Shown: piece after piece, positions 43,641 through 46,062 of the stretch
How positions within the stretch are numbered: position 1 is the first letter of the stretch
Layout of the letters: every line of letters starts with the position of its first letter
Source: Actinomycetes bacterium
GTDB lineage: Bacteria > Actinomycetota > Thermoleophilia > Gaiellales > F1-60-MAGs149
Direction: 5' to 3'
Length of the DNA: 64,000 nucleotides
Assembly: GCA_025360225.1 (NCBI GenBank)
Contig: JANYCN010000064.1
Location: 1 to 64,000 of the forward strand
Position numbers and translations under genes: made by a program
The notes under the pieces: generated by a model
What the model saw: only the letters and a program-made list of their open reading frames with translations
Told to the model about the DNA's origin: nothing
Database searches by the model: none

Positions 43641-43646
43641 TACCGT
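43641..43646 (+). promoter_or_regulatory. -10 box of leaderless start at 43654
   Basis: TACCGT is followed by 7 bases and then ATG, favouring 43654 over the GTG at 43645. Confidence 0.4.
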
Positions 43647-43653
43647 GGCGACG

Positions 43654-44724
43654 ATGGTCGAGCATCTGAACCCGAAGCCCGGCAGTGGCGTCATCGCCGT
43701 CCGTACCGCGGTCGGTCTGCACGTTCGCGATGACCGCGCGTTCACGTTGTTCGACGGACCCGACGCCGCGCGCTTCCTGCAAGGGATGGTCACGAACGAC
43801 GTCTCCGCCGTGGCGGTCGGCGACGCGACCTACGCGTTGCTCCTGACACCAAAGGCGCGGATCCTCTGCGACCTCCGGCTGACACGCCTCGCCGAGTCAA
43901 CCTTCCTCGCCGACCACGCCGTCGACGCTGGCGCGCTGCTGCGCTCGACGCTGAGGCGCTACCGCTTGCGCTCGCGCACGACGATCGACGACGCCGACGC
44001 CGGCTACGCGGTTGCGATCGTTGCCGGTGCGCGAGCCGGGATGCTGCTGCTTGATGCGTTCGGCGTGATCCCACGCGCCGACGCGGCAGAGAACACCGGA
44101 ACCGCGATCCTCGTCGACGGCGTCGAGGTGCACCTGCTCGCCAGCCCGTGCTGTGGCGAGAAGGCGTTTGAGCTGATCGGCCCGATCGCGGCCGTCTCGG
44201 CTGCGGCGGACCAGCTCGCGCTCGGGCTGCCGAAGCACAACGGGTCGTGGTTCACCTTCGACGAGCTCGACACGCTCCGCGTCGAGGCCGGCGTACCGAG
44301 CTTCGGTGCTGAGATCGACGAGCGGGTGTCTCCCTCCGAGGTCGGCCTCGTCGAGCGCGCCGTCTCCTTCACGAAGGGGTGCTACACCGGGCAGGAGCCC
44401 GTCGCTCGCCTGCACTACCGCGGACATGCCAATCGCGGACTGCGATCGCTGCTTCTCGACGACGTCGCGCCGCGGCCCGGCGCGACGATCTCGCTCGGCG
44501 AGCGGGAGGTCGGACGGGTCACCTCTGCCCGGTGGTCGCCGACCCTTGGCCGCGTCGTCGCTCTGGCGATCGTGCGCACCGAGGTCGAGCTCGGCGCGAC
44601 GGTCACCGTTGACGTCGCCGGTGCAGGCATCGTTGCTGCTGTGCCTGCCTACGACTGGAAGATGCGCCCGGCACGAATCGAACGTGCGACACCTGGCTCC
44701 GCAAGCCAGTGCTCTATCCCCTGA
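43654..44724 (+). CDS. ygfZ: folate-binding protein YgfZ
   Basis: This 356-aa GcvT-like protein is thought to help assemble iron-sulfur clusters with tetrahydrofolate. The signature KGCYTGQE is intact (TKGCYTGQEPVARLHYRG), with FDGPDAARFLQGMVTNDV at the start. The last 20 or so residues after AYDW (KMRPARIERATPGSASQCS) are encoded by the strand opposite a tRNA gene and are unlike the family. The C-terminus has probably run into the tRNA gene. Confidence 0.9.
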   Translation: MVEHLNPKPGSGVIAVRTAVGLHVRDDRAFTLFDGPDAARFLQGMVTNDVSAVAVGDATYALLLTPKARILCDLRLTRLAESTFLADHAVDAGALLRSTLRRYRLRSRTTIDDADAGYAVAIVAGARAGMLLLDAFGVIPRADAAENTGTAILVDGVEVHLLASPCCGEKAFELIGPIAAVSAAADQLALGLPKHNGSWFTFDELDTLRVEAGVPSFGAEIDERVSPSEVGLVERAVSFTKGCYTGQEPVARLHYRGHANRGLRSLLLDDVAPRPGATISLGEREVGRVTSARWSPTLGRVVALAIVRTEVELGATVTVDVAGAGIVAAVPAYDWKMRPARIERATPGSASQCSIP

Positions 44725-44735
44725 GCTACGGGCGC
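44663..44735 (-). tRNA. tRNA-Arg, anticodon GCG
   Basis: It folds as a full cloverleaf: acceptor GCGCCCG/CGGGCGC, D arm GCTC/GAGC, anticodon stem CTGGC/GCCAG with loop TTGCGGA, T arm GCACG/CGTGC, discriminator A, and no encoded CCA. The loop gives anticodon GCG, reading CGC. The body resembles actinobacterial tRNA-Arg(CCG). Bacteria normally read CGC with an inosine (ACG) tRNA, so this anticodon is unusual. It overlaps the ygfZ 3' end by 62 bases on the other strand. Confidence 0.9.
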
Positions 44736-44805
44736 TCCGAACAAGAACGATACCAGGGACGCCAACCCCCCGCGCCAGGCAGCGCGGTGCTGACGAGGTG
44801 CTGGC

Positions 44806-46062
44806 TCAGACGACGACGGCGGCGACGGCGCGGATGCCCGCAGCGATGCCGTCAACCATCGCAGCAAGCTCGTCCTCCGTCGTGATGTACGCCGGAGAGA
44901 TCTGGATGCCGACGCCGCGAAGCCCCCGCGTGCACACCCCGTGCTGGCGGATCGCCGCGGCAGCACGATCGGCCAGCCCTGGTCGCTCAGCGAGCGCCTC
45001 CGCGGAGAACTCGACGCCGCCAAGCAGCCCAACGTGGCGCACCTCGCCGACGAGCGGGAGCTCGCGCAACGGCTCGAGAAGGCCCACCAGCACCGGCTCG
45101 AGCGACCGGACACGGGCGACGAGGTCCTCGCGCTCGACGATGTCGAGGTTCGCCATCCCGGCGGCACAGCAGGCGGCGTGACCCGAGTAGGTGAAGCCGT
45201 GACGGAACGGCGGCGCGCCGGCGGCCCAGAACGCCTGCTTGACGCGCGGCCCAGCGATCACGCCACCGAGCGGCAGATACCCGGACGTCACACCCTTCGC
45301 GAAGGTGATCAGGTCGGGCTCGATGCCGTAGCGCTGGCACCCAAACCACTCGCCAAGGCGTCCGAACCCACAGATCACCTCGTCCTGGATCAGGAGGACG
45401 TCGCGTTCCGTGCAGATGCGCCGAACCTCCGCCCAGTAGCCCTCCGGCGGCGGGATCACGCCACCGGCGCCGATCACCGGCTCGCCGATGAACGCCGCGA
45501 CGCGCTCTCCGTGGCGATCGAGCAGCTCTTCGAGGTCATCCGGGTCGTCCCACCTCACACGCAGCGTGTCCGGGATGATCGCGTTGCCGTACCCCTCGAG
45601 GTTGCCCGGGATGCCGGCGAGCGCGGTGCCGTACGCGTTCATGCCGTGATAGCCGTGCTGGCGCGAGATGATCGCCGTCTTCTGCGGCTGGCCGGCGATG
45701 TTCCAGTAGCGACGAACGAGCTTGCAGGCGGTGTCGACCGCCTCCGACCCACCGGAAGCGAACATCACCGCGCCATCGTCGAACGGCGAGAGGTCAACGA
45801 TGCGATCTGCGAGCGCAAGCGCCGGCTCGTTCGCGTGGTCGAGGAAGCAGTGGTGGGCGGCGAGCCGCGCCATCTGTGCCGCAGCCGCGTCGGCGATCTC
45901 CTGACGGCCGTGGCCGACCGAGCAGAACCAGAGGCCGGCGGACGCATCAAGGTACTCGCGCCCCGCGCGATCCCAGATGCGTGCGCCGTCCCCGCGCGCG
46001 ACGACGAACTCCGCATCGTCGACCGCGCCCATTGCCGCGAAACCGTGCCAGAGGCGTGTCAT
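44806..46062 (-). CDS. class III aminotransferase
   Basis: This 418-aa PLP enzyme has MFASGGSEAVDTACKLVRRY, the aromatic HGYHGMNAYGTAL, LLIQDEVICGFGR and the Schiff-base lysine in ITFAKGVTSGYLPLGG. The overall pattern resembles beta-alanine-pyruvate, putrescine and GABA transaminases of the omega group, which move amino groups from terminal amines to pyruvate or 2-oxoglutarate. The ATG is supported by TACCCT 7 bases upstream. It is separate from the PiT gene, whose stop lies 16 bases upstream. Confidence 0.9.
   Translation of the reverse strand: MTRLWHGFAAMGAVDDAEFVVARGDGARIWDRAGREYLDASAGLWFCSVGHGRQEIADAAAAQMARLAAHHCFLDHANEPALALADRIVDLSPFDDGAVMFASGGSEAVDTACKLVRRYWNIAGQPQKTAIISRQHGYHGMNAYGTALAGIPGNLEGYGNAIIPDTLRVRWDDPDDLEELLDRHGERVAAFIGEPVIGAGGVIPPPEGYWAEVRRICTERDVLLIQDEVICGFGRLGEWFGCQRYGIEPDLITFAKGVTSGYLPLGGVIAGPRVKQAFWAAGAPPFRHGFTYSGHAACCAAGMANLDIVEREDLVARVRSLEPVLVGLLEPLRELPLVGEVRHVGLLGGVEFSAEALAERPGLADRAAAAIRQHGVCTRGLRGVGIQISPAYITTEDELAAMVDGIAAGIRAVAAVVV

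Follow-up and report, generated by a model that had tools for sequence, protein, structure and literature searches.

Arginine CGN codons in the order Gaiellales are very probably decoded by tRNA-Arg(GCG), tRNA-Arg(UCG) and tRNA-Arg(CCG), which together replace tRNA-Arg(ACG) and TadA. The starting point is a tRNA-Arg(GCG) gene, the only tRNA gene in the window (the whole stretch of 64,000 nucleotides that was analysed). Possession of the GCG tRNA together with the lack of ACG and TadA is a trait of the whole order, while the rest of the class Thermoleophilia uses ACG and TadA. The replacement of wobble inosine is known in other bacteria, so that Gaiellales is a clean new case and not a new kind of system.

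Arginine tRNAs and TadA in the source genome and its class

The source genome (G000) is 97% complete and assembled in 89 contigs; its tRNAs were counted with Rfam and their anticodons assigned by ARAGORN. Among the 42 tRNA genes, the arginine anticodons are GCG, TCG, CCG and TCT, with the UCG tRNA at locus L017 and the CCG tRNA at locus L006, and no tRNA-Arg(ACG) was found. TadA was not found in this genome either; the cut-off of its profile is 150 bits, and the top two matches score 46.8 and 29.2. The protein with the higher score is a yeast-type cytosine deaminase (2.6e-31 for the PDB match versus 1.6e-13 for TadA) and the other is RibD, with a RibD_C domain scoring 157 bits and a gene flanked by ORFs named by eye as epimerase-like and riboflavin-synthase-like; both are ruled out as TadA. 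The sequence-only reading, which had proposed listing the tRNA-Arg genes and tadA, had suggested that the GCG tRNA could replace the inosine route. That suggestion is now strongly supported, as both the genome and the order are without ACG and TadA and the UCG tRNA would cover the codon served by inosine.

The class was sampled with 249 genomes, 78 from Gaiellales and 171 from the rest of Thermoleophilia. With a strict pattern, the GCG tRNA is found in 64 of the 78 order genomes. All four sampled families carry it. Two further genomes of family f4 (G015 and G250) have a GCG tRNA with a variant D-stem that was recovered by BLAST and ARAGORN, and the apparent lack of both GCG and ACG in this family was rejected for that reason. 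Conservation in relatives, another check proposed by the earlier reading, is thereby established, and a sequencing error at the anticodon, which that reading had considered, is practically excluded because GCG orthologues occur across the order. The UCG tRNA has the same count within the order (64/78) and is absent from all 171 other genomes of the class; CCG is present in several order genomes besides the source genome. With the strict pattern, ACG occurs in one order genome (G164) versus 123 of 171 in the rest of the class. TadA is matched at 6.1e-34 or better in 148 of these 171 genomes, and a strong TadA is found in none of the 78 order genomes, where the best match is 5e-21. Family f6, outside the order, had also seemed to lack both GCG and ACG; this was rejected, since a D-loop variant that escapes the strict pattern had masked its ACG genes, which are present in seven of the eight genomes tested.

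An intact GCG gene is missing from 12 order assemblies, five of them more than 90% complete (G020, G080, G102, G153 and G193). TCG is present in four of the five, and GCG is found in other members of the genera to which most of them belong; gaps in the assemblies are therefore likely to explain these five. One assembly (G225; L269, G225:C244) holds just the 3' part of the GCG tRNA (positions 27–73), 100% identical to that of relatives and preceded by unrelated sequence, reflecting either a chimeric contig or a broken gene. In G164, which has GCG as well, the ACG gene lies on a 3-kb contig (L258, G164:C160) and its body is identical to that of another family; it is either contamination or a real remnant. 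The GCG tRNA also turns up in public MAG contigs that bear the titles Bifidobacterium breve and Burkholderiales (L162 and L202), of which L162 shows the Gaiellales synteny with ygfZ and PAP2 too; these MAGs are probably mislabelled or contaminated.

Could the GCG tRNA be an extra, non-essential isoacceptor, with a normal ACG/TadA system merely missed by a 97%-complete assembly? The split of the assembly into 89 contigs would allow it, and GCG does stand beside ACG and TadA in five of the 171 class genomes outside the order (G120, G134, G138, G072 and G091), from which it follows that GCG alone does not imply inosine loss. However, 77 of the 78 order genomes lack ACG, all 78 lack a strong TadA and UCG is confined to the order. 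That assembly gaps account for the joint absence in all of these genomes is not credible, and the extra-isoacceptor explanation is very improbable. Among the five genomes with both systems, G120 and G134 (L253 and L254), from another family, have tRNA-Arg(GCG), tRNA-Arg(ACG) and TadA encoded within about 8 kb, which, as far as gene content can tell, shows that the two decoding systems are able to coexist. In G138 (L255, G138:C2:490000-505000) 12 tRNA genes are clustered, among them genes with the arginine anticodons ACG, GCG, CCG, TCT and CCT; the arrangement suggests a tRNA array that is mobile or carried by a phage.

The tRNA gene, its putative promoter and its neighbours

The features of the locus are as follows.

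43645–44724, plus strand: gene for a YgfZ/GcvT-like folate-binding protein, convergent with the tRNA (ORF list, Pfam GCV_T 92.6 bits, synteny)
44663–44735, minus strand: tRNA-Arg(GCG) gene, 73 nt, CCA unencoded (ARAGORN, Rfam tRNA 65 bits, fold)
44700–44702, minus strand: anticodon GCG, positions 34–36, flanked by U32, U33, G37 and A38 (sequence, ARAGORN)
44747–44752, minus strand: −10-like element TATCGT, 11 nt upstream of the tRNA 5' end (sequence, order-wide conservation)
44806–46062, minus strand: class III aminotransferase gene upstream of the tRNA (Pfam PF00202 272 bits, synteny)

The complete tRNA-Arg cloverleaf with a GCG anticodon described in the earlier reading is confirmed by ARAGORN, which places gcg at position 34, and by Rfam; its strand, absent from that description, is minus. 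The match to Rfam family RF00005 spans the whole gene and scores 65 bits, where the gathering score is 29 (E 7.5e-12), and just one of 200 shuffled sequences folds as well. The sequence, divided by structural element, is GCGCCCG-TA-GCTC-AGGGGATA-GAGC-A-CTGGC-TTGCGGA-GCCAG-GTGTC-GCACG-TTCGATT-CGTGC-CGGGCGC-A, in which the anticodon loop TTGCGGA is closed by the stem CTGGC/GCCAG. The commoner form of the 5' half of this stem is CTGCC, and an independent origin of the CTGGC gene was considered and rejected, as similar stems occur in other members of the order and the gene stays beside ygfZ. A20, C35 and A73 match identity elements of E. coli ArgRS. U32 and A38 are able to pair, and an internal 32–38 pair is required in bacterial G34 tRNAs (PMC8266599).

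The −10-like element is conserved across the order. Of 40 distinct orthologues from the order, 39 have a TANNNT hexamer ending 8–14 nt upstream of the tRNA, whereas equally wide control windows average 0.33 of 40. This conservation is a strong footprint of what would be a dedicated promoter for tRNA-Arg(GCG). The upstream aminotransferase gene lies on the same strand as the tRNA, 70 bp away, and also neighbours the tRNA in a member of the family (G003). On the other side, the ygfZ frame enters the tRNA gene antisense by ~62 bases (44663–44724) and has its stop codon inside it (44722–44724), so that the complement of the tRNA encodes the last residues of the YgfZ protein. In the two families examined, ygfZ is a conserved neighbour of the GCG tRNA at most loci, in varying relative orientation, and PAP2, aminotransferase and aldolase genes are sometimes also nearby. 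The synteny with ygfZ indicates that tRNA-Arg(GCG) is an old orthologue.

That the gene is a functionless pseudogene or a tRNA-like sequence, for which the intrusion of the ygfZ frame from the opposite strand might speak, can be dismissed with near certainty in view of the complete cloverleaf, the order-wide conservation with stems that stay paired through base changes, and the −10 element held at a near-fixed distance. With high probability, the gene instead encodes a working tRNA-Arg that would be expressed and charged with arginine.

Origin of the GCG tRNA and its counterparts in other phyla

When the wobble base is masked, the GCG tRNA reaches identities of at best 0.90 to other Gaiellales GCG tRNAs, 0.85 to Gaiellales CCG tRNAs and 0.78 to ACG tRNAs of the class. 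In its D-loop it follows the CCG type, having one base fewer than is usual in ACG tRNAs. Its neighbours in a masked tree are CCG-type tRNAs and GCG tRNAs from other phyla, at low resolution because the gene is short. The sequence-only reading had noted the resemblance to tRNA-Arg(CCG) and proposed that a single C34-to-G34 change could have created the gene. Derivation from a CCG-type tRNA is partly supported: the identities and the D-loop favour it, and 72 bases are too few to settle it. A recent single-base change in the source genome is not what happened, the gene being an old syntenic orthologue beside ygfZ.

Counterparts outside the phylum bear on the origin as well. GTDB genomes were scanned with a pattern that fixes the D-loop and part of the anticodon stem, and near-identical GCG tRNAs, whose likeness is partly built in by this pattern, were found in MAGs titled Chloroflexi/Chloroflexota, Dehalococcoidia, Bipolaricaulota, Zipacnadia and others. 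None of the 20 GCG-bearing MAGs tested outside the phylum has a TadA match above 62 bits. In 201 genomes from the phylum of one such MAG, titled Dehalococcoidia, the GCG pattern occurs in 100; TadA of at least 128 bits occurs in 24, and none of these 24 has the GCG pattern. An intermediate TadA-like protein (95–125 bits, covering profile positions of about 5–145) is found in 15 Chloroflexota genomes, all with the GCG tRNA (G279, G292, G302, G311, G320, G329, G354, G370, G378, G386, G410, G425, G449, G457 and G465), and in several of them the protein and the GCG tRNA are encoded within a few kb on one contig. This protein is possibly a repurposed TadA relative.

Two other origins deserve weighing. 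One is horizontal transfer: a phylum without TadA, for example Chloroflexota or Bipolaricaulota, may have donated the GCG gene, or GCG and UCG as a whole set, to the ancestor of Gaiellales. In those phyla the GCG tRNA has almost the same body as the common Gaiellales form, and the two are intermixed in the tree, but the outgroups were found with the pattern that itself imposes part of the likeness and 72 bases carry too little signal; roughly one chance in a few is as much as transfer deserves. Slightly less probable again is an A34-to-G34 mutation of an ancestral tRNA-Arg(ACG). It has a precedent in the Mycoplasma pneumoniae group (PMC3711424), and G37 is common to the GCG tRNA and the ACG tRNAs of some sister families. 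It is opposed by a D-loop that most ACG tRNAs of the class exceed by one base, by the identity of at best 0.78 to ACG against 0.85 to Gaiellales CCG, and by the position of the GCG tRNA in the masked tree. Both alternatives concern where the tRNA came from and not what it does.

Proposed decoding of the CGN box and its significance

In the proposed mechanism, G34 of tRNA-Arg(GCG) would read CGC by Watson-Crick pairing and CGU by G-U wobble, U34 of tRNA-Arg(UCG) would read CGA and probably CGG, and tRNA-Arg(CCG) would read CGG. The three would cover the whole CGN box, which would make inosine, tRNA-Arg(ACG) and TadA unnecessary. Served by G34, U34 and C34, arginine would be decoded like other four-codon boxes, without the bacterial inosine exception. 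ACG and TadA were probably lost or replaced at the base of Gaiellales, and the GCG and UCG tRNAs would have been gained before that loss.

The sequence-only reading had also proposed that the tRNA could matter for fast decoding of CGC. The sampled genes of the source genome use CGC for 53% and CGA for 8.7% of their CGN codons, but inosine-using relatives prefer CGC likewise. In a small comparison based on simple gene calls (nine order genomes versus 17 other class genomes), the CGA share of CGN is 8.9% in the order versus 6.7% elsewhere in the class, no significant shift (p = 0.18), and the CGC, CGT and CGG shares do not differ. A consequence of the switch for codon usage was therefore rejected, none being detectable in these nine and 17 genomes.

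The rest of the class decodes CGN in the standard bacterial manner, with TadA-made tRNA-Arg(ICG) and with CCG; Gaiellales differ in lacking ACG and TadA and in possessing UCG in addition. The closest known systems are other bacteria without inosine. The Mycoplasma pneumoniae group has GCG and UCG tRNA-Arg and has lost tadA (Yokobori et al. 2013, PMC3711424), and Gaiellales resemble these TadA-less Mollicutes in having GCG in place of ACG, with UCG present. However, the Mollicutes have reduced parasite genomes without CCG and a GCG tRNA that is believed to have arisen from ACG by A34-to-G34 mutation (PMC3711424), whereas Gaiellales have genomes of about 1.3–4.2 Mb, with the window at 70% GC, keep CCG and have a CCG-like tRNA body. 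A passage in Shulgina and Eddy 2021 (PMC8629427), citing Rafels-Ybern et al. 2019, gives bacteria of the Candidate Phyla Radiation (CPR) tRNA-Arg GCG, UCG and CCG and no ACG. On that account the CPR have the same three-tRNA CGN set without inosine, but Gaiellales are a single order of Thermoleophilia, a class in which ACG and TadA serve the remaining sampled families. A G34 tRNA-Arg for CGC and CGU without inosine also recalls archaeal-type decoding, though genome and tRNA are here bacterial. The link between a missing A34 tRNA and missing TadA has published precedent (PMC3711424, PMC8629427 and PMC8072771). A literature search, with the surveys of Rafels-Ybern 2019 and of Diwan and Agashe 2018 outside its scope, found no paper joining Gaiella to the trait of GCG without TadA.

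A more general proposal can be put forward tentatively, at somewhat less than even chances. A GC-rich, non-reduced actinobacterial order may have dropped wobble inosine by way of a CCG-derived or transferred G34 tRNA-Arg and a new U34 tRNA-Arg, and TadA loss may then be a repeated switch with more than one molecular route.

The tRNA substrate of TadA is near-universal in bacteria, and tadA is essential in E. coli. The sharp, order-wide loss of TadA beside relatives that keep it provides a natural comparison for the replacement of an essential decoding step, and the sequence of events can be tested with the sister families and the few genomes that have both systems. Bacterial A-to-I mRNA editing also depends on TadA, so that Gaiellales and many Chloroflexota, which lack it, would not be expected to edit mRNA in this way.
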